Program-made: the position numbers and the translations under genes
Shown here: piece by piece, positions 52,585 to 64,000 of the stretch
Layout of the letters: every line of letters starts with the position of its first letter
Position numbering within the stretch: the first letter of the stretch is position 1
Notes under the pieces: model-generated
Told to the model about the DNA's origin: nothing
Seen by the model: only the letters and a program-made list of their open reading frames with translations
The model's database searches: none
Origin: Basidiobolus meristosporus CBS 931.73
Lineage: Eukaryota > Basidiobolomycota > Basidiobolomycetes > Basidiobolales > Basidiobolaceae
Assembly (NCBI GenBank): GCA_002104905.1
Contig: MCFE01000088.1
Location: forward strand, 112,782 to 176,781
Direction: 5' to 3'
Length of the DNA: 64,000 nt

Positions 52585-52991
52585 GGGGGAAGGGAAAGTT
52601 GCCAAGTTGGTGAAATCTTTATTTGAGTCAAGAGCTAATCTAAGTACAAATAAAGAAGCCAACTAAGAAGTCTAGAACTTCTCTAATAAGTATTCCAATC
52701 TATGTTTTGTTTCATCTCTAATGTTTGTTTCAACAAAGTCAAGCTCATCAGGGGTAAATATAAAATTCATGGGTTTTTGGGGAAGTACAAATTGTAGATG
52801 TTTTTTATCAATATAATCTAAGACTGGAACCCAGCCTGGGATTAGGTGTAGTAGGAAAGGTTTGTAGACTTGTAAGTGGCTCTGCCACATATATCTTAGA
52901 TGGTCCTGTGCCAGTAGTTGTGGTTTCTCAGCTTTTTGAAGTTTTGAAGCAAGCTCTGTTACTACAGCAGAGCCAACCAGGGTGTGCCAGC
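52585..52991 (-). mobile_element. LINE-2: 3' fragment of a second non-LTR retrotransposon family
   Basis: On the minus strand this encodes the end of an ORF2-like protein (WHTLVGSA, AEKPQLLAQD, MWQSHLQVYKPF, ending LEYLLEKF) that aligns with the C-terminus of LINE-1 ORF2 (SEKPKLAYLK, LWQQYLQQHTPF) at low identity. It is followed by a tail with the shared AAATAAAGATTTCACC core, a short palindrome CCAACTTGG, and C-rich sequence. Its 5' side is cut off by the copia LTR at 52992. Confidence 0.8.
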
Positions 52992-53340
52992 TGTTGTAAG
53001 AGTCTTGGAGATATTGGAAGTGATTGGGAGAACAAGTAGATTATGTGGTTTTCACTTAATGATTTATTGAATGTAAAAGTGGTATTTATGCTTTTACTTG
53101 GTTTTGGCATTACAAACACATAGAATAGGTTAAGGAAGGTCCCAAGAACATTTGTGCAAAGTTAGGGGCTGTTTGGACAACTTTGAGAGTTTTCATGTTC
53201 TGGGTACCTGGTATTTTGGTGAAAATATTCTAAGTAAATCCCAACAAGGAATTTGGTCAGTATTCTCTAGGATTTGAGGATAATGATCTAAGTGACTAAG
53301 TTAGGTGAATATTTAGGTGGAAATACAGATTTTTACAACA
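52992..53340 (-). mobile_element. 3' LTR of a Ty1/copia element
   Basis: 349 bases with perfect 8-base terminal inverted repeats (TGTTGTAA at both ends, read inward). It lies immediately after the copia polyprotein end and a purine-rich tract GAGTGGGAG. Two further copies of the same LTR are at 51275 and 51710, with a worn one near 46300. It appears inserted in the LINE-2 fragment. Confidence 0.85.
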
Positions 53341-53351
53341 CTCCCACTCAG

Positions 53352-53649
53352 CTAAATGTGCATACTGACTAGTCCTAATTTTGACCTAAGATATTCAAAC
53401 TTGTCTCTAGCTAATGGTTTGGTAAATATGTCTGCAATCATTTCATCTGTAGGACAGTAAACTAAGCTAACTAAGTTATTCTCTATAGCTTCACATATGA
53501 AATGATGTCTAATATCTATGTGCTTGGCTCTAGCATGAAAAGTTGGATTTCTACCTAATTGTATACATCCTTCATTATCTTGAAATAAAGTAGTAGGCAC
53601 TTTTTGACATAGGCCTAAATCTGTAAAAAGTTTTCTTAACAACACTGCT
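53352..53649 (-). pseudogene. Ty1/copia pol, C-terminal RNase H remnant
   Basis: On the minus strand, QAVLLRKLFTDLG and then QDNEGCIQLGRNP, ARAKHIDIRHHFI and TDEMIADIFTKPLARDKF are the standard end of copia RNase H, with the stop at 53352 just before the 3' LTR. The rest of pol is missing because the gypsy LTR at 53650 interrupts it; the bases CTGCT at 53645-53649 could be one half of the gypsy target duplication. Confidence 0.88.
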
Positions 53650-54346
53650 TGTTGTATCCAAGAGAAAGTGTGATAAAACTCTTGAATGGTTTAACTGAAC
53701 CAAAGGGACAATTAAGTGCAGGATCTTAGAATTGTCAGAGAGTGGCGGGAATATTAGCAGAAAGATTCTGATCTAATATTGGTCTTGGATATAGATGGGT
53801 TGGCTGTAAAGACAATGATATTTGTTTGCTAGGCAGGCTAGGCTTGGTGTTCTTTGGAGTGCTAGATGTACTAGGCTTGGATAGAAACTAGAACGGAATT
53901 GTTGGATTCTTATTTTTGCTGAGACAGAATCTTAATTTTGTTGAGACACACACTAAACCAAAAGGTTCAGTAAACTTTATTTATACTTTTCTGATCAAGT
54001 TGAATTAGTAAGCGCCAAGGGACTGGATTGATTGAAATCAATTTGGGTGCTCATAGGTGCATAAGATAAATGAAAATTACATCATCAATCAGCTGATGTC
54101 TTGGCAACTGCACAGTGGTTGGATAGATCTCAGATGACTAATTACCTGGGAAGGCTTGGCAGATAGGCTGATAACGTAATGACCATTTGAAAATAGATCA
54201 GGTGTGATAGCTAAAAATAGATTCTGAGGTGGGATAAAATAAACTGAAACTGGGATTTGTTATGTTTGGGTTAGGGAAAATCAGTTAGGGTACTAGATTT
54301 TCAAACGGAGTAAAATTGACTAAGTTTTAAATGTTGATGCACAACA
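53650..54346 (-). mobile_element. 3' LTR of a Ty3/gypsy (chromodomain) element
   Basis: 697 bases beginning TGTTGTGCATC and ending GATACAACA on the minus strand, 36 bases after the stop of the integrase-chromodomain frame. It contains a TATAAATAAAG box on its sense strand. It inserted into the copia coding region and is better preserved than its relative at 51897-52584. Confidence 0.85.
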
Positions 54347-54382: not shown

Positions 54383-54731
54383 CTAGGTTCCTCTGCGGCT
54401 CCAATACTGATCAATAATGGCAACATCATCAAAGTTGGTGTAAGGTTCCCAGATGTTGTGTTTGGCATCATAGCCTTTCCACTTGACTAAATAAAGGCAA
54501 TTTGGTTCTTCTCCATCATGGTCCACAATAGCTTCCACTTCATAGGATTCCAAAGTTACTGGGTCTTGAGAAATGAGTTTGAGTGAAGAAGGTGGAAAGT
54601 TTTTGGGTAGCAGTGCTCCAGTGTTATCCTGAAGTACATAAGATCCTCCAGTAGTGCGTCTGACAACCTTGAATGGTCCTTCATACTTGGGGTCAAGCTT
54701 AGATTGCCGGATTGGATCTAGTGTCATGACA
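54383..54731 (-). pseudogene. Ty3/gypsy integrase C-terminus with chromodomain (truncated)
   Basis: The minus frame ends a gypsy polyprotein: DPKYEGPFKVVRRTTGGSY and VLQDNTG match the integrase C-terminal SH3-like part, followed by a chromodomain (YLVKWKGYDAKHNIWEP, then a C-terminal helix with IIDQYW). This identifies a chromodomain-bearing Ty3/gypsy element, a group that in fungi often targets heterochromatin. The upstream part is lost at the insertion of LINE-1 copy a. Confidence 0.9.
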
Positions 54732-55096
54732 TAGGGTTAGGGGGGAGACAGTCACCAACAGGTGAAATCTTCATTTCAGTTGAAACAAAGTAGCCAGCGC
54801 TACTGTTGTAGCTTTGATACAAGAGTGTGTAGCTGAGGGGAATTTGTAGGTAAGTTAATAAGAAGTGATGATAGTTCTTCAGTGCTCAAGACACTGTTCA
54901 GTGGGAAGGGGGGTGGCAAGAGAGGTAAGAATGACTTGTGAACAACATTAATGAGGGGAATGTGATAAGGATTGATATTCATCATAAAGGGAGTGTGCTG
55001 CTGCAGATATTGCTGCCAAAGGTCTGTCAAGTACTTCAGGTAGGCCAGCTTGGGTTTTTCTGACTGCAGAATAAATTCAGCAAACTTCTTGACTTC
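54732..55096 (-). mobile_element. LINE-1 copy a: 5'-truncated 3' fragment
   Basis: Contains only the end of ORF2 (LWQQYLQQHTPF to the stop near 54800) and the 3' tail (hairpin CACC-TGTT-GGTG, C run, CCCTAACCC). Truncation at about 55096, just upstream on the sense strand of KKFA, is the usual result of incomplete reverse transcription. It lies inside the gypsy integrase region. Confidence 0.88.
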
Positions 55097-55130: not shown

Positions 55131-55197
55131 GGGTTAGGGGGGGAGACAGTCACCAACAGGTGAAATCTTTATTTCAGTTGAAACAAAGAAGCCAGCG

Positions 55198-57966
55198 CTA
55201 CTGTTGTAGCTTTGATACAAGAGTGTGTAGCTGAGGGGAATTTGTAGGTAAGTTAATAAGAAGTGATGATAGTTCTTCAGTGCTCAAGACACTGTTCAGT
55301 GGGAAGGGGGGTAGCAAGAGAGGTAAGAATGACTTGTGAACAACATTAATGAGGGGAATGTGATAAGGATTGATATTCATCATAAAGGGAGTGTGCTGCT
55401 GCAGATATTGCTGCCAAAGGTCTGTCAAGTACTTCAGGTAGGCCAGCTTGGGTTTTTCTGACTGCAGAATATAGTGAGCAAACTTCTTGACTTCAGCATC
55501 TCCAAGTATAGTTCTCCAGCAGGAGCCAGGTGTTGTGTGGTGTGTTCTCTTCCAGGCCTTAATCAGTGGGTTGTTGCAGTTGTGAAGTCTGAGGTATAAT
55601 CTGGTTCTAAGGTAGAGAAGTCTGATCTTATAGGGCATAAACGCAAAAGCACCAAGAATAGCATGTCTGTAGGGGCATTCAGGCAAATGAGGCACCAAGG
55701 AGGTAATGCACCATACTGCAAACTTGTCAAGCTTAGTGCAGTCTCTAGAAGTAAGAGAGAGAAGTGGTAAGCCAAATTCCAGGACAGGGAAGACAAACTG
55801 CTTGAGTAGAAGGAGGCAGCTGGGAGCTGAAGTTGTAGGAGGAGTAACAGCCAGTAGCTTGTGGAGTGCCTGTCTTGCTAGGATAATTCTCTTCTTCAGG
55901 TGTGCTCCAGAGTCTAGTCCAGTAGGAAGGAAAGGAAAGCCAAGATATGTAGCAGAAACCTGAGCAGGTAGAGTGGAGTTCTCCAAGTTGATGGGAGAGC
56001 CCAAAGGTACTGTCTTTGCAATGGAAAGCTGGAGATTATTCTTCTGCAGATACTGGTGGATGGTCTGAGAGTCTTGTTGCACATTGGAGGAGGATATTCT
56101 GATGTCATCAGCAAAGAGAGTAACCAGGCAGTCAGCTGAGAGTCTTGGGAAATCATTCAGGAAGATGGCAAACAGTATAGGACCAAGCACAGAGCTTTGA
56201 ACCACTCCATTAGGAACTGAGAACACAGCTGATTGCTCACTTGGGTGCAGAATTCTTGCTTGTGGATCCAGAATCAGAGACCTGACAAGGAGGATGAGAG
56301 AGGTACTGGAGAAGCATTGCAACTTGGACCAAAGCAGATTTCTGTCAACTGAATCAAAGGCCGTAGTAATATCAAACAGAACAGAGGGATACTTGCACTG
56401 GAGAGAGTGATCTTGGCTACGTATGACTGCATATTCCAAGGAGAGGCCAGGAACAAAGCCAAACTGTGCAGGATGAAACTTGAGGGAGTCAGAGTAGAGC
56501 TCCTGAGCAAGCAGAAGCTCAAACACCTTTCTGCAGGTGGGCAGCAGAGATATTGGCCTGTAGGAGCTAGGATCCAGGTGCTTTCCTTTACCCTTGTACA
56601 GTGGCAGAACATTTGCAAAGGACCATTCCTCAGGAGTAGAAAGCTGGGCTGAGCATTGCTGAAACAGTGGAAGCAGAAGTGCAGACATGGCCTTGGTACT
56701 AGTCTTCAGAAGCTCATAAGAGATTGTGTCCACACCTGGAGCAGTAGAGTTGGGAAGCCTCTTGAGCACATTATGGATTCTCCTTTGATCAAGTGCAAGT
56801 GGGATGGGCAGAGTCTTGAAGTCAGGATGAAAGCCAGGAGTTGAGTACTGCTTTGTAGAGAAGAAGATGTTAGCCAGCTGTTCTGTTGAAGGTAACTTCC
56901 TGGAAGAGGGCCTCATTGCCCTGTAGAGTCTTGATACTGTTCTTGTTATAGAGTTGGAAGATTGCAGAGGCAAAGAACTCATAATATGATCCCAGAGCTG
57001 AGTATGCAGAGTGTGGTGAATTGCCTTGGAGTGGTGTATTGCTGTCAGGAGGAGTTTCTCTGTTTTTGGGTTAGGGAAACTCAGGTAGCTTTGTTGCAGG
57101 GCTGAAACAATGGATTCCCATTTTCTTGAGGTAACAGCAGTAGTCTTGCATGGCAGTGAGAGGGAGGCAGACACCAGAATCAGATGCTTCACAAAGAGCC
57201 AGGCAAAGTTGAGATCATCTGGCAGAGAAAGTAGCAAACTGGCAAGCTTCAAGTAGTTCCCAAAGTCTTTCTTCTGATTCTTGGTAGCTTTGTGGGTGAG
57301 CACAGTAAGTTTTGGCAGCTTCTTCTTCACAACTGGTTGCATAGAAAGGGACCAGGCTGGGTGGTCAGAGGCTCTCAAGGATCCTAGCTCAGCTCCAGAG
57401 AATTGCTTGACTTCATTCACAAAGTAGAGGGCAGCAGCAGAAGGGCAGATCCAGTCAACACATCTTTTCTCAGATTGAGCACCTAGTGCTAGCAGGTGGC
57501 TTTCTCTCAGGAAGTTCAGTAGGAATGTAGACCTTGGCTTCATTCTTGCAGTCAGAGTAGTCTTGTTCTCAGGATGGGGAATGTTGAGATCTCCAAGCAA
57601 GATAACAGGTGTTGATATAGATTGTTGGTATTGCTGAACCTTCTGGCATGTAACTTGCACTTCCTGAAGGGCTAGACTTGGAGGCAGATAGCAGAGCACC
57701 AGACTGATAGTTGGCAACTGGAGAGCAGCACAGTAAGGGGAGTAAAGAGGAACACAGAGCTGAGGAGTATTGATGGTAGAAGAGATGAAGCAGATAGAGG
57801 AGGTATTCTTTGTTCTAGGAGTAGAAAAGCAATATAGATTAGTCAAAAGTATAGAGGGTAGCTGGACATCAATCAAACACAGGAGGGAAAATCTTGAAAG
57901 AAGTCTCTCTAGAGTTGGTCTTGATGGCTGTATGCTGTTGCAGTTAAGCAACAGAACTTCAGGTAG
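55198..57966 (-). CDS. LINE-1 ORF2 protein (AP endonuclease and reverse transcriptase)
   Basis: About 920 residues in the same frame as ORF1, directly after its TGA. The first ATG lies over 140 codons in, inside the endonuclease, so translation must begin by readthrough, reinitiation or a non-ATG codon. Endonuclease motifs: LLNCNSI, VILLGDLNIPH and SDHPAW. Reverse transcriptase motifs: SYRPISLLPTCRKVFE, VLFDITTAFDSVDRN (motif A), GVVQSSVLGPILFAIFLNDF and LFADDIRISS (catalytic Asp pair). GVVQSSVLG carries Ser where copies d and e have Gly (GVVQGSVLG), so this copy may be less active. The C-terminus lacks an evident RNase H domain. Together with ORF1 it would copy element RNA at a nicked target. 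Confidence 0.88.
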   Translation of the reverse strand, partial: LPEVLLLNCNSIQPSRPTLERLLSRFSLLCLIDVQLPSILLTNLYCFSTPRTKNTSSICFISSTINTPQLCVPLYSPYCAALQLPTISLVLCYLPPSLALQEVQVTCQKVQQYQQSISTPVILLGDLNIPHPENKTTLTARMKPRSTFLLNFLRESHLLALGAQSEKRCVDWICPSAAALYFVNEVKQFSGAELGSLRASDHPAWSLSMQPVVKKKLPKLTVLTHKATKNQKKDFGNYLKLASLLLSLPDDLNFAWLFVKHLILVSASLSLPCKTTAVTSRKWESIVSALQQSYLSFPNPKTEKLLLTAIHHSKAIHHTLHTQLWDHIMSSLPLQSSNSITRTVSRLYRAMRPSSRKLPSTEQLANIFFSTKQYSTPGFHPDFKTLPIPLALDQRRIHNVLKRLPNSTAPGVDTISYELLKTSTKAMSALLLPLFQQCSAQLSTPEEWSFANVLPLYKGKGKHLDPSSYRPISLLPTCRKVFELLLAQELYSDSLKFHPAQFGFVPGLSLEYAVIRSQDHSLQCKYPSVLFDITTAFDSVDRNLLWSKLQCFSSTSLILLVRSLILDPQARILHPSEQSAVFSVPNGVVQSSVLGPILFAIFLNDFPRLSADCLVTLFADDIRISSSNVQQDSQTIHQYLQKNNLQLSIAKTVPLGSPINLENSTLPAQVSATYLGFPFLPTGLDSGAHLKKRIILARQALHKLLAVTPPTTSAPSCLLLLKQFVFPVLEFGLPLLSLTSRDCTKLDKFAVWCITSLVPHLPECPYRHAILGAFAFMPYKIRLLYLRTRLYLRLHNCNNPLIKAWKRTHHTTPGSCWRTILGDAEVKKFAHYILQSEKPKLAYLKYLTDLWQQYLQQHTPFMMNINPYHIPLINVVHKSFLPLLLPPFPLNSVLSTEELSSLLINLPTNSPQLHTLVSKLQQ

Positions 57967-59502
57967 TCAGGCAGAGGTTGTAGCTTCTTCAGAGGCAGCA
58001 TTGACAATGTGACCTGCAGAGTCCCAGAGCTCTTCAAATGGTGCATCACTTAAGTCAGCAAGGAGGGAAATGGCATGGTTCTTGAGGAAGTATGCCACAT
58101 CATAGGAGGGGGCTTGTCTCTTGATGGCAGCAAAGAAAGACAGAATGGCAACATGGGCTGGAGGCTTGTTGAACAGTAGAGAGTCAGAGGATTCAGATTC
58201 TTCAGGCACTATCTTGAAGTCAGTTTTCAGCCAGTTAAGGTTCTTCTCCACAAAGGCAACAAATGGGTCAGCAATGTTTTGGTCTAGGATAACCTCCAGA
58301 ATCTTCCCTTTTCTCCAGGCCAGGTTGACAATTCTTGAGAGCTGAATATTGCATGCCTTGAGTGCTTTCCTGATGTTGGAAATGGGAGTCCAGGGAACTT
58401 GCTTCAAGTACACCACAGTCCAGGTAGAAGCTGGTGGTAGGTTTGCTGGGGGCTTGTAAGTCCTTCTGTGTTGCAATGGAGCTGCAGTAGTCAGATTGGA
58501 GTCCACATTCTCAGTAGAAGGTTTTCTTGATGTGTCTTGCTGAATAGTACTGGAGCTGGATGTGCTGATAATTCTTGCTAGAACCTTGCCTGCATAAGTC
58601 TGAGGTATAGCTGAGGTGACTGTAGAGGTGGTGGCAGCTGGTGCAGGTGGAGAGGCAGAGACTGAAGCAGGAACTGAGGTCACCTGGGAGAAGGCAGTAG
58701 AAGCAGGTTTTCTGGGAGGAACAGAGTTCACTATCCAGTTGTTCTGTAAAACACTGGAGTAGCTTTTCTGTGGAACAGGATCTTGCTCTTGAACAGGAAC
58801 AGAAGCAGGAGGCTGGGGCTGAGCAGTAGTGGTAAGGCAGTGGCACTCCAAGGAAGCTTTTTGCAAGGCATCTCTGGCAGTTTTCAGGGCAGTATTGGCT
58901 TCATTCTTGAGCTTCTTGCATTGGGCATCCAGTCTCTTGTTTTCAATAGCCAGGGCAGTATTGGCAGCCTCTAAATCAGCAATTCTCTTCTCAATTGCAA
59001 GGAATCTCTGAAGAAATGCATCAGTAGAAGTGCTGGCATCTGGGAGAGCAGTGGCAGGAATAGAGTCCATTGACAGTGGGCTTCTTGGAGGCAAGGAAAG
59101 TGGACTGGCAGATTCAGGCACAAAAGGAGATATCCTGGCAGGAGGAGAAGGAGTATCCAAGGCAGTAACAGAGGCAATTCTTGTTGGTGAAGCAGCAGCA
59201 GGGGAGGCAAGCCTGTTCAGAAACTGGGCAGGAGAGAGTGCTTGAGGAGAGGGAGTCTTCAGCTTGCCAAGCATGTCTTCCATCAGAGTGATACCAATAT
59301 TCCTGGTGCATTTGCAGAGAAAAGTAAGCTTCCTGAGTCTGCCAGCTCTTCCATTCCTTCTGATAGTTCCTTTGTTTCCACAGTTGGGGCAAGAAATCTT
59401 CTTGACAGACTTGTCAAAGCAATCAAGAACCTTCCTTTCAGGTGTAGTGGGCTCCTGTTGAGGTTTTGGTGGCATATCCAGAGTTTCAGCTTCAAATTTC
59501 AA
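57967..59502 (-). CDS. LINE-1 ORF1 protein (zinc-binding motif, coiled coil, RRM-like region)
   Basis: A 511-residue protein starting at an ATG. Near the N-terminus CPNCGNKG then FLCKC forms a zinc-ribbon-like Cys cluster. Residues about 165-220 are a heptad-rich coiled coil (IEKRIADLEAANTALAIENK). A long Pro/Ser/Ala-rich linker follows, then a C-terminal region with WTVVYLKQVPW, ILEVILDQ and a helical end, which resembles the RNA-recognition-like fold of ORF1 proteins. Such proteins bind element RNA and form RNPs. The stop is TGA at 57967-57969, followed by CTA, and the frame stays open beyond it into ORF2. Confidence 0.82.
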   Translation of the reverse strand: MKFEAETLDMPPKPQQEPTTPERKVLDCFDKSVKKISCPNCGNKGTIRRNGRAGRLRKLTFLCKCTRNIGITLMEDMLGKLKTPSPQALSPAQFLNRLASPAAASPTRIASVTALDTPSPPARISPFVPESASPLSLPPRSPLSMDSIPATALPDASTSTDAFLQRFLAIEKRIADLEAANTALAIENKRLDAQCKKLKNEANTALKTARDALQKASLECHCLTTTAQPQPPASVPVQEQDPVPQKSYSSVLQNNWIVNSVPPRKPASTAFSQVTSVPASVSASPPAPAATTSTVTSAIPQTYAGKVLARIISTSSSSTIQQDTSRKPSTENVDSNLTTAAPLQHRRTYKPPANLPPASTWTVVYLKQVPWTPISNIRKALKACNIQLSRIVNLAWRKGKILEVILDQNIADPFVAFVEKNLNWLKTDFKIVPEESESSDSLLFNKPPAHVAILSFFAAIKRQAPSYDVAYFLKNHAISLLADLSDAPFEELWDSAGHIVNAASEEATTSA

Positions 59503-59556
59503 TTTTTGAGATTTTTGGGTGATTTTTGATGGGCGGGATCAAAATTAGGGTTAGGG

Positions 59557-59664
59557 TTGCGCGCTGTGACTGCTTTTACGATCGCAAGGTCAGATCCTAG
59601 GAAAAATAAAAATAGTTAGTAAAGGTGATTTAATGGATGGATGGATGGATCGGAGTCAGATTCA
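59557..59664. other. Short spacer with an ATGG tetranucleotide run
   Basis: Lies between the 5' end of LINE-1 copy b and the SINE tail. ATGG is repeated about four times at 59633-59650. Nothing else is recognised; part may be 5' UTR of the LINE. Confidence 0.45.
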
Positions 59665-59753
59665 TTAGGGTAGGGGAGGAAAGTCACCAAGTGGTGAAAT
59701 CTTTATTTACTTATGACAAGTATCTAAAGAAGCCAAGTTAATCTGAAGTAATT

Positions 59754-60194: not shown

Positions 60195-61440
60195 GTTAGG
60201 GTTAGGGGGGAGACAGTCACCAACAGGTGAAATCTTTATTTCAGTTGAAACAAAGAAGCCAGCGCTACTGTTGTAGCTTTGATACAAGAGTGTGTAGCTG
60301 AGGGGAATTTGTAGGTAAGTTAATAAGAAGTGATGATAGTTCTTCAGTGCTCAAGACACTGTTCAGTGGGAAGGGGGGTAGCAAGAGAGGTAAGAATGAC
60401 TTGTGAACAACATTAATGAGGGGAATGTGATAAGGATTGATATTCATCATAAAGGGAGTGTGCTGCTGCAGATATTGCTGCCAAAGGTCTGTCAAGTACT
60501 TCAGGTAGGCCAGCTTGGGTTTTTCTGACTGCAGAATATAGTGAGCAAACTTCTTGACTTCAGGATCTCCAAGTATAGTTCTCCAGCAGGAGCCAGGTGT
60601 TGTGTGGTGTGTTCTCTTCCAGGCCTTAATCAGTGGGTTGTTGCAGTTGTGAAGTCTGAGGTATAATCTGGTTCTAAGGTAGAGAAGTCTGATCTTATAG
60701 GGCATAAACCCAAAAGCACCAAGAATAGCATGTCTGTAGGGGCATTCAGGCAAATGAGGCACCAAGGAGGTAATGCACCATACTGCAAACTTGTCAAGCT
60801 TAGTGCAGTCTCTAGAAGTAAGAGAGAGAAGTGGTAAGCCAAATTCCAGGACAGGGAAGACAAACTGCTTGAGTAGAAGGAGGCAGCTGGGAGCTGAAGT
60901 TGTAGGAGGAGTAACAGCCAGTAGCTTGTGGAGTGCCTGTCTTGCCAGGATAATTCTCTTCTTCAGGTGTGCTCCAGAGTCTAGTCCAGTAGGAAGGAAA
61001 GGAAAGCCAAGATATGTAGCAGAAACCTGAGCAGGTAGAGTGGAGTTCTCCAAGTTGATGGGAGAGCCCAAAGGTACTGTCTTTGCAATGGAAAGCTGGA
61101 GATTATTCTTCTGCAGATACTGGTGGATGGTCTGGGAGTCTTGTTGCACATTGGAGGAGGATATTCTGATGTCATCAGCAAAGAGAGTAACCAGGCAGTC
61201 AGCTGAGAGTCTTGGGAAATCATTCAGGAAGATGGCAAACAGTATAGGACCAAGCACAGAGCCTTGAACCACTCCATTAGGAACTGAGAACACAGCTGAT
61301 TGCTCACTTGGGTGCAGAATTCTTGCTTGTGGATCCAGAAACAGAGACCTGACAAGGAGGGTGAGAGAGGTACTGGAGAAGCATTGCAACTTGGACCAAA
61401 GCAGATTCTGTCAACTGAATCAAAGGCTTAGTAATATCAA
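60195..61440 (-). mobile_element. LINE-1 copy d: 5'-truncated
   Basis: Holds the second half of ORF2 (frame 60265-61389; GVVQGSVLG, LFADDIRISS and the full C-terminus) and the standard tail. It breaks off after the codons for VDRN, where the sequence enters the indel-rich stretch at 61400-61582. It is almost identical to the matching part of copy e. Confidence 0.88.
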
Positions 61441-61582
61441 AACTAGAGAAAGTCACAAGTGTGAATCTTATACTTATGACAAGTATCTAGAAGCAAGTAA
61501 TCTGAAGTATTCCTAGAAAGCTAGTCTGAGATATCTCTGTAAGCAGTCTGAGTGAGAAGCTGAGTGGTACTATATTTCTAGT
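61441..61582 (-). repeat. Indel-ridden SINE fragment between LINE-1 copies d and e
   Basis: Aligns with SINE bases 59679-59850 but lacks about 20 short pieces, nearly all one base of a doubled base or one unit of a GAGA-type repeat, with almost no substitutions. The pattern resembles raw long-read error more than evolution. Confidence 0.75.
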
Positions 61583-64000
61583 AGGGGGGAGACAGTCACC
61601 AACAGGTGAAATCTTTATTTCAGTTGAAACAAAGAAGCCAGCGCTACTGTTGTAGCTTTGATACAAGAGTGTGTAGCTGAGGGGAATTTGTAGGTAAGTT
61701 AATAAGAAGTGATGATAGTTCTTCAGTGCTCAAGACACTGTTCAGTGGGAAGGGGGGTAGCAAGAGAGGTAAGAATGACTTGTGAACAACATTAATGAGG
61801 GGAATGTGATAAGGATTGATATTCATCATAAAGGGAGTGTGCTGCTGCAGATATTGCTGCCAAAGGTCTGTCAAGTACTTCAGGTAGGCCAGCTTGGGTT
61901 TTTCTGACTGCAGAATATAATGCAGCAAACTTCTTGACTTCAGGATCTCCAAGTATAGTTCTCCAGCAGGAGCCAGGTGTTGTGTGGTGTGTTCTCTTCC
62001 AGGCCTTAATCAGTGGGTTGTTGCAGTTGTGAAGTCTGAGGTATAATCTGGTTCTAAGGTAGAGAAGTCTGATCTTATAGGGCATAAACCCAAAAGCACC
62101 AAGAATAGCATGTCTGTAGGGGCATTCAGGCAAATGAGGCACCAAGGAGGTAATGCACCATACTGCAAACTTGTCAAGCTTAGTGCAGTCTCTAGAAGTA
62201 AGAGAGAGAAGTGGTAAGCCAAATTCCAGGACAGGGAAGACAAACTGCTTGAGTAGAAGGAGGCAGCTGGGAGCTGAAGTTGTAGGAGGAGTAACAGCCA
62301 GTAGCTTGTGGAGTGCCTGTCTTGCCAGGATAATTCTCTTCTTCAGGTGTGCTCCAGAGTCTAGTCCAGTAGGAAGGAAAGGAAAGCCAAGATATGTAGC
62401 AGAAACCTGAGCAGGTAGAGTGGAGTTCTCCAAGTTGATGGGAGAGCCCAAAGGTACTGTCTTTGCAATGGAAAGCTGGAGATTATTCTTCTGCAGATAC
62501 TGGTGGATGGTCTGGGAGTCTTGTTGCACATTGGAGGAGGATATTCTGATGTCATCAGCAAAGAGAGTAACCAGGCAGTCAGCTGAGAGTCTTGGGAAAT
62601 CATTCAGGAAGATGGCAAACAGTATAGGACCAAGCACAGAGCCTTGAACCACTCCATTAGGAACTGAGAACACAGCTGATTGCTCACTTGGGTGCAGAAT
62701 TCTTGCTTGTGGATCCAGAAACAGAGACCTGACAAGGAGGGTGAGAGAGGTACTGGAGAAGCATTGCAACTTGGACCAAAGCAGATTTCTGTCAACTGAA
62801 TCAAAGGCCTTAGTAATATCAAACAGAACAGAGGGATACTTGCACTGGAGAGAGTGATCTTGGCTAAGTATGACTGCATATTCCAAGGAGAGGCCAGGAA
62901 CAAAGCCAAACTGTGCAGGATGAAACTTGAGGGAGTCAGAGTAGAGCTCCTGAGCAAGCAGAAGCTCAAACACCTTTCTGCAGGTGGGCAGCAGAGATAT
63001 TGGCCTGTAGGAGCTAGGATCCAGGTGCTTTCCTTTACCCTTGTACAGTGGCAGAACATTTGCAAAGGACCATTCCTCAGGAGTAGAAAGCTGGGCTGAG
63101 CATTGCTGAAACAGTGGAAGCAGAAGTGCAGACATGGCCTTGGTACTAGTCTTCAGAAGCTCATAAGGAGATTGTGTCCACACCTGGAGCAGTAGAGTTG
63201 GGAAGCCTCTTGAGCACATTATGGATTCTCCTTTGATCAAGTGCAAGTGGGATGGGCAGAGTCTTGAAGTCAGGATGAAAGCCAGGAGTTGAGTACTGCT
63301 TTGTAGAGAAGAAGATGTTAGCCAGCTGTTCTGTTGAAGGTAACTTCCTGGAAGAGGGCCTCATTGCTCTGTAGAGTCTTGATACTGTTCTTGTTATAGA
63401 GTTGGAAGATTGCAGAGGCAAAGAACTCATAATATGATCCCAGAGCTGAGTATGCAGAGTGTGGTGAATTGCCTTGGAGTGGTGTATTGCTGTCAGGAGG
63501 AGTTTCTCTGTTTTTGGGTTAGGGAAACTCAGGTAGCTTTGTTGCAGGGCTGAAACAATGGATTCCCATTTTCTTGAGGTAACAGCAGTAGTCTTGCATG
63601 GCAGTGAGAGGGAGGCAGACACCAGAATCAGATGCTTCACAAAGAGCCAGGCATAGTTGAGATCATCTGGCAGAGAAAGTAGCAAACTGGCAAGCTTCAA
63701 GTAGTTCCCAAAGTCTTTCTTCTGATTCTTGGTAGCTTTGTGGGTGAGCACAGTAAGTTTTGGCAGCTTCTTCTTCACAACTGGTTGCATAGAAAGGGAC
63801 CAGGCTGGGTGGTCAGAGGCTCTCAAGGATCCTAGCTCAGCTCCAGAGAATTGCTTGACTTCATTCACAAAGTAGAGGGCAGCAGCAGAAGGGCAGATCC
63901 AGTCAACACATCTTTTCTCAGATTGAGCACCCAGTGCTAGCAGATGGCTTTCTCTCAGGAAGTTCAGTAGGAATGTGGACCTTGGCTTCATTCTTGCAGT
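61583..64000 (-). mobile_element. LINE-1 copy e (runs off the window; two frameshifts in ORF2)
   Basis: ORF2 from the endonuclease (SEKRCVDWICPSAAALYF, SDHPAW) through reverse transcriptase (VLFDITKAFDSVDRN, GVVQGSVLG, LFADDIRISS) to the C-terminus and tail. One extra base near 61922 (before KKFA) and one extra G near 63166 (at the codons for TISYELL) split the frame into 61644-61952, 61792-63246 and 63161-63991; the element continues beyond base 64000. Apart from these indels the coding sequence is undamaged. Confidence 0.88.

Follow-up and report, generated by a model that had tools for sequence, protein, structure and literature searches.

Telomere-specific long interspersed nuclear elements (LINEs) are known from Bombyx (SART1 and TRAS1) and from Drosophila (HeT-A and TART), and the endonuclease of the SART/TRAS elements is of the apurinic/apyrimidinic (AP) type. 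How LINEs produce the protein of their second open reading frame (ORF2) is a long-standing question. Several routes have been described: in SART1, ORF2 is coupled to ORF1 via an overlapping stop-restart site, and L1 has been proposed to use a reinitiation-like route (PMC5972666); trypanosome LINEs use 2A StopGo; and the route by which the TART polyprotein is produced has been called unknown (PMC5009743). In fungi, MoTeR1 of Magnaporthe and FoTeR of Fusarium are described as telomere LINEs whose 5' ends face the end of the chromosome (PMC12857005), MoTeR1 is the fungal case named in one list of telomere retrotransposons (PMC10088271), and the two-ORF Candida LINE Zorro3 is reported to have an inter-ORF region and to require the first ATG of ORF2 (PMC1965478). 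Outside the LINEs, the gag-pol of murine leukaemia virus has a stop codon that divides a structural ORF from a polymerase ORF of the same frame (PMC5009743), and a single in-frame UGA precedes pol in Tca2, a long terminal repeat (LTR) retroelement of Candida albicans with a potential 3' pseudoknot (PMC2194720). Here we describe a LINE of the fungus Basidiobolus meristosporus CBS 931.73, read from a stretch of 64,000 nucleotides (contig MCFE01000088.1, positions 112,782 to 176,781; hereafter the window), in which ORF1 and ORF2 are separated by nothing but an in-frame TGA followed by CTA, a context that suggests stop-codon readthrough.

The junction of the window copy reads, on the minus strand, GAA GAA GCT ACA ACC TCT GCC TGA CTA CCT GAA GTT CTG TTG CTT AAC TGC AAC AGC, with the TGA at 57969-57967 and the CTA at 57966-57964. 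An earlier note on this DNA had claimed that both ORFs form one frame split by this single TGA-CTA, that more than 900 codons stay open past the stop, that conserved ORF2 sequence begins within ten codons of it, and that no ATG occurs until deep inside the endonuclease. Direct reading bore out all of these points. The ORF1 frame is free of stops over 523 codons upstream of the TGA (502 when counted from the ATG at 59475), the ORF2 frame runs for 922 codons before a TAG at 55200-55198, the motif LLNCNSI begins 6 codons past the TGA, and ORF2 has its first in-frame ATG at codon 142, counting CTA as codon 1. The note had also called UGA-CUA a leaky context used in fungi, which agrees with reports that UGA-CU suffices for efficient readthrough in Ustilago, that an A at the next position helps in human cells (PMC4207609), and that UGA-CUA by itself gives about 1.5% readthrough in human cells (PMC4132726).

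By its parts, the element, hereafter family A, is a two-ORF LINE of B. meristosporus. The window copy covers about 4.4 kb (59544-55137, minus strand; Table 1). Copies truncated at the 5' end share one 3' end, a hallmark of LINEs, and no LTRs were seen as repeats around the element. ORF2 matches the Pfam reverse transcriptase RVT_1 (E 2e-22), and its best PDB match is LINE-1 ORF2p (E 3e-11). The match of its N terminus to an AP-type endonuclease is weak (Exo_endo_phos_2, residues 88-202, E 2e-4, scoring 21.6 bits where the cut-off is 27.4); PF14529 is annotated in only one (P0005) of five close ORF2 relatives, and PF14529 or PF03372 on many remoter ones. A simple pattern search for a C-terminal restriction-like endonuclease revealed no Cys-His or R(H/P)D-type motif in ORF2 of family A or of family B, a second family described below, and there was no Pfam match of that kind. 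The Pfam matches of ORF1 are of coiled-coil type, weak and below the cut-off. Among the very many copies of the element, that of the window may itself be inactive, as it has private residues at two conserved reverse transcriptase positions (DITTAFD and VVQSSVLGP; about 56180-56375, minus strand) at which five of five ORF2 relatives agree.

Family-A junctions were searched genome-wide with 34 bases, at most 3 mismatches and the stop codon left free. The best 100 of the 152 places found have exact flanks, and TGA CTA is present in all 100 of them. Exact-flank searches with VNN or TGB at the stop returned 0 and 0 places (THN was not searched). Among 30 family-A ORF2 loci, which come from a ranking by protein score and do not form a random sample, TGA CTA was found in every one; ORF2 is free of stops in 28, with one stop each in L021 and L023, and ORF1 is truncated or broken in many. 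Twelve further regions, in which C360 duplicates one of the 30 loci and C667 was already among the 100 junctions, yielded TGA CTA in 11, the twelfth (C577) being truncated within the junction.

Family B was found by a search with P0005, the best 51 of 1279 candidates being scored. Its junction reads GAG TCT GCC TGA CTA CAR AAC ATA CTC TTA CTC AAT TGC AAC, and the stop is TGA in 32 of 33 places and TGA CTA in 31 of 33, in the same frame and position as in family A. ORF2 of family B has 949 codons (four copies read). Between the two families, 439 of 918 ORF2 residues are identical (48%), the proportions of synonymous and nonsynonymous sites that differ (pS and pN) are 0.770 and 0.364, and the same codon is used at 179 of 427 shared degenerate residues. 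The retention of CTA is not mere recency, because the two families have the same codon at 23 of the 93 leucines they share, against an expectation of 0.17 from codon use (the latter from a smaller sample). Aligned flush, the junctions share 13 identical bases, TCTGCCTGACTAC; elsewhere in the 323 codons compared, identical runs of 16, 13 and 12 bases occur. That stop, frame and CTA appear to have been retained while synonymous sites became saturated is suggestive, not overwhelming. A motif search of the genome for a third family led to six regions, read as one family-B copy and five without a relative, and the best 51 of 1269 candidates from a search with P0003 all look like family A. In one place (L049), the 3' end of a family-A copy is fused directly to a 5'-truncated family-B copy, and mixed arrays of both families occur.

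Selective constraint was evaluated as pN/pS. For ORF2, the ratio was 0.21 over the 30 ranked family-A loci (435 pairs), 0.18 over four family-B copies from the protein ranking, and 0.32 over the four open copies among eight family-A copies picked from the 100 listed junctions without protein ranking. For ORF1, it was 0.23 over 10 family-A loci selected for collinearity from the 19 with enough flank. The value over all 19 loci, 0.86, was set aside because truncated or shifted flank had been forced into the alignment of nine divergent loci, which differ from the window copy at at least 177 of 1497 sites. Since ORF2 is under purifying selection in copies that bear the TGA, it is evidently made despite this stop. 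The earlier note had proposed aligning the junction over genomic copies and looking for low dN/dS on both sides of the TGA, and had held that a sense codon at 57967-57969 in other copies would speak against readthrough. The alignment kept TGA-CTA in the 30 loci and the best 100 of 152 places, no sense codon occurred among the family-A junctions read, and pN/pS was low on both sides (0.18-0.32 for ORF2, 0.23 for ORF1) in open or selected copies.

Programmed readthrough would leave two traces, a stop with its leaky context kept over deep divergence and a downstream in-frame ORF under purifying selection. Both appear to be present here, the former across two families only and the latter in the open or ranked sets. 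The TGA-CTA junction is real, conserved and most likely functional, and its best explanation, which we consider quite probable, is production of ORF2 as an ORF1-ORF2 fusion by UGA-CUA readthrough. The ORF1 protein would arise by normal termination at the UGA, a minority of ribosomes would take this UGA as sense and continue in frame, and the resulting fusion would bear the endonuclease and the reverse transcriptase. Readthrough would also fix a high ratio of ORF1 to ORF2, like that of gag to gag-pol in some retroviruses. The readthrough itself, its frequency and the activity of the fusion as an enzyme are what we infer from sequence comparison. The proposal of the earlier note is thereby upheld as the favoured account, by the kept stop and context, by selection on both ORFs and by the lack of an AUG at the junction, and rival starts of ORF2 keep some weight.

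The junction shares the stop, positions +4 to +6 and their conservation with genes read through at UGA-CU(A), such as those for fungal peroxisomal isoforms and mammalian MDH1, LDHB and OPRL1 (PMC4207609, PMC4132726). In those genes the extension is a short tail, whereas here it would be a putative LINE enzyme of 922 residues, with C and not G at +7. The likeness to murine leukaemia virus lies in the order of the ORFs and their common frame; unlike that retrovirus, which uses UAG and a 3' pseudoknot, the element is non-LTR and has UGA-CUA with no 3' structure shared between the families. Tca2, also a fungal retroelement with one UGA, differs in being an LTR element. A hairpin after the family-A stop reached a z score of -2.2 over 53 nt (4 of 200 shuffles were equally good) and of -0.17 over 173 nt. 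The corresponding stretch of family B has no such hairpin (z -0.40 over 180 nt), and the hairpin was dropped as a signal common to both families.

Several points weigh against readthrough. First, two family-B places depart from the pattern: in C830, a copy with several other stops, CAA replaces the stop, and in C102 the stop is followed by GTA. Second, the comparison at the DNA level spans two families only and is therefore one comparison. Third, the signal of selection rests on open copies; the other four of the eight family-A copies picked without ranking are frame-broken and give 0.86, and all eight give 0.77, a contrast that would be expected from dead copies of a living lineage. Fourth, the family-A hairpin is missing from family B, and the base following CUA is C where G is the optimum. 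Fifth, the relative P0001 opens with MDLLLLNCNS, a possible start codon just past the stop, although gene callers may also print GTG or TTG as M. Finally, the gag-UGA-pol junction of Tca2 is reported to have given no readthrough in Saccharomyces cerevisiae, a heterologous host (PMC2194720).

The possible start just past the stop in P0001, at codon 2, bears on the idea that a separate ORF2 protein is made by termination and reinitiation or by internal initiation at a non-AUG codon close to the stop. The stop-start overlap of SART1 and the reinitiation-like route proposed for L1 (PMC5972666) are precedents, and near-cognate codons occur within the first 11 codons, CTG and TTG at codons 5-6 in family A and ATA at codon 4 in family B. 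However, these codons stand at non-matching positions in the two families, no in-frame AUG lies near the junction and none lies at it in either family as SART1-type coupling would need, and the first in-frame ATG of family B is codon 59, again within the endonuclease. An ATG in another frame, which the earlier note had named as a possible ORF2 start, was not found in six copies of family B, which lack an ATG in all frames between -145 and +102 around the stop; family A has out-of-frame ATGs upstream of the stop, the nearest at -32. Reinitiation or internal initiation at a non-AUG codon would leave unexplained both the retention of UGA CUA (the stop and +4 to +6) and the sharing of one frame by ORF1 and ORF2, and we regard it as unlikely.

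A second mRNA, spliced or transcribed from an internal promoter, could give ORF2 another start codon. Family A has an AG at +11, and its stop sits in CTGAC, which is like a branch point. A minor promoter has been described within the gag-pol junction of Tca2 (PMC2194720). With respect to splicing, however, the family-B copy L071 has no AG from the stop to the conserved Asn codon, the AG of L072 is placed differently from that of family A, and no junction read lacks an intron-like piece across the stop. We consider this route improbable.

Another kind of bypass, by an in-frame hop, 2A-like StopGo or a host suppressor tRNA, seems very improbable. StopGo 2A is known in LINE sequences of trypanosomes and sea urchins (PMC5972666), but its NPGP motif was not found in ORF1 or ORF2 of family A or in ORF2 of family B. 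A host that reads UGA as sense was also considered and thought unlikely, as five frames of GH20 beta-hexosaminidase genes in the window end in TAA (four) or TGA (one), a weak argument since the frame with TGA may be a gene fragment. Readthrough is thus the simplest remaining route, because there is no AUG at the junction, no position-matched near-cognate codon, no common splice acceptor and no NPGP. Finally, a nonsense mutation in a former single-ORF element, with dead copies carried along, is hardly credible and was rejected, for although young, near-identical copies (11 of 40 scored places tie for the top score at 100% identity) could stem from one mutated master, the same TGA stands in family B at synonymous saturation, ORF2 past the TGA and, in open copies, ORF1 are under purifying selection within the families in which they were compared, and ORF1 of relatives from other sources stops at about the same place; the earlier preference for readthrough over nonsense therefore stands, but it had overlooked the telomere targeting described below.

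In the protein collection, five close relatives of ORF2 (P0001-P0005, 47-79% identity) and seven of ORF1 (P0077-P0083) were found, and one of the latter, P0079 from Basidiobolus ranarum, is 58% identical in the alignment. None of the five ORF2 relatives is a fused ORF1-ORF2 protein, such lengths being in range, and in three cases a separate ORF1 protein and a separate ORF2 protein come from contigs of the same length (4636, 4892 and 5665). The last two residues of ORF1 are SA or TA in P0077, P0078, P0080 and P0083; those of P0081 and P0082 are different, and P0079 is diverted before its end. The starts of P0002-P0005 lie further inside ORF2; they are gene-caller choices and prove little. Two scans of viral contigs and one of prokaryote genomes revealed no relative.

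The placement of family A in the genome points to chromosome ends. With contig ends taken as chromosome ends, one of which (L031) was seen running into telomere repeat, 35 of 36 family-A loci (the 30 protein-ranked loci and 6 more from the same genome search) have a contig end no more than 12 kb away on their 5' side, the exception being C726, and the 5' side is the shorter one in 33 of 36. On contigs longer than 50 kb, 29 of 30 loci were within 12 kb of the end, compared with 3.0 expected. The 5' ends point outward, toward the contig end, and the arrays of family A in the window are head-to-tail and mostly 5'-truncated. At the 3' end, 27 of 30 loci have a C run with TAA directly after it, and only 8 of 30 have TAACCCTAA there; by a looser test, 25 of 30 loci contain CCCTAACCC no more than 260 bases from the end of ORF2. 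The contig-end placement is the stronger evidence because the TAA may be the element's own end. These data indicate that family A is a telomere-targeted LINE, which appears to insert at telomere repeats. Of the 152 family-A junctions, 147 fall on the minus strand of their contigs, so that most copies have their outer end at the right-hand end of a contig, which may reflect a habit of the assembly. Two minus-strand segments of the window, 55148-55174 at the 3' end of family A and about 59682-59708 at another C-run end of the array (perhaps of family B), have in common AAATAAAGATTTCACC-loop-GGTGACT, with a 4-bp stem and differing loops, which may be a recognition site of the reverse transcriptase. 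A match to the telomerase RNA-binding domain, over the cut-off and in two pieces, lies at G000:C880:173109-173423, and telomerase and telomere LINEs seem to coexist in this host.

Family A resembles SART1/TRAS1 and HeT-A/TART in its telomere specificity, and MoTeR1 and FoTeR in being a fungal telomere LINE with the 5' end outward. Unlike MoTeR1 and FoTeR, which have a restriction-like endonuclease and one large ORF, it has an AP-type endonuclease and two ORFs; unlike Zorro3, with which it shares two ORFs and a fungal host, it has no inter-ORF region. We think it on balance likely that a Basidiobolus lineage of telomere-targeted AP-endonuclease LINEs makes its endonuclease and reverse transcriptase as a fusion by programmed UGA-CUA readthrough. 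In the open-licence literature searched, as far as its text was accessible, no report of a stop-codon-readthrough LINE, an AP-type fungal telomere LINE or a Basidiobolus telomere LINE was found. If our reading is true, this would be a LINE with gag-pol-like recoding as well as an AP-type telomere LINE in a fungus, non-LTR elements would have arrived by convergence at the gag-pol solution of retroviruses, and the six bases UGA CUA would control a large enzyme in a natural setting. The link to chromosome ends may also bear on telomere upkeep in a fungus that has a telomerase-like gene.

Table 1. Parts of the family-A copy in the window and of the array around it (window positions).
Feature	Position	Strand	Remarks
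ORF1	57967..59475	-	ATG start, TGA stop, 502 codons; Cys cluster at the N terminus, stretch resembling a coiled coil, conserved domain at the C terminus
ORF1 stop TGA, in frame with ORF2	57967..57969	-	
CTA C directly 3' of the stop	57963..57966	-	UGA-CUA weak-termination context
7-bp hairpin CUGUUGC/GCAACAG	57935..57954	-	12 nt past the stop; no family-B counterpart
ORF2, AP-type endonuclease and reverse transcriptase	55198..57966	-	922 codons and TAG
3' untranslated region	55137..55197	-	final C run merging into CCCTAA-type repeat; contains AATAAA and CACC-TGTT-GGTG
5' untranslated region of the window copy	59476..59544	-	starts directly after two CCCTAA repeats
AACCCTAACCCTAA telomere-type repeat at the 5' end of the window copy	59545..59558	-	
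5'-truncated family-A copy, head-to-tail downstream	54740..55096 (ends approximate)	-	ends in C run and CTAACCCTA
5'-truncated family-A copy, head-to-tail upstream	60205..61443 (ends approximate)	-	3' end on CCCTAACCCTAA
Another family-A array copy, leaving the window	61584..64000	-	3' end continues CTACTAG, not CTAA

Beyond the array, the minus strand at 52672-53040 carries a fragment resembling the C terminus of P0005 and family-B ORF2. Adjoining fragments look copia-like (53352-53690) and chromodomain gypsy-like (54383-54736), labels given by eye from the translations with no family search. From 5443 to 28537, the minus strand holds numerous GH20 beta-hexosaminidase genes and gene fragments in tandem. 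One GH20 gene of the window, at 5.4-7.1 kb, matches proteins of B. meristosporus CBS 931.73, and several members of the array are apparently broken.

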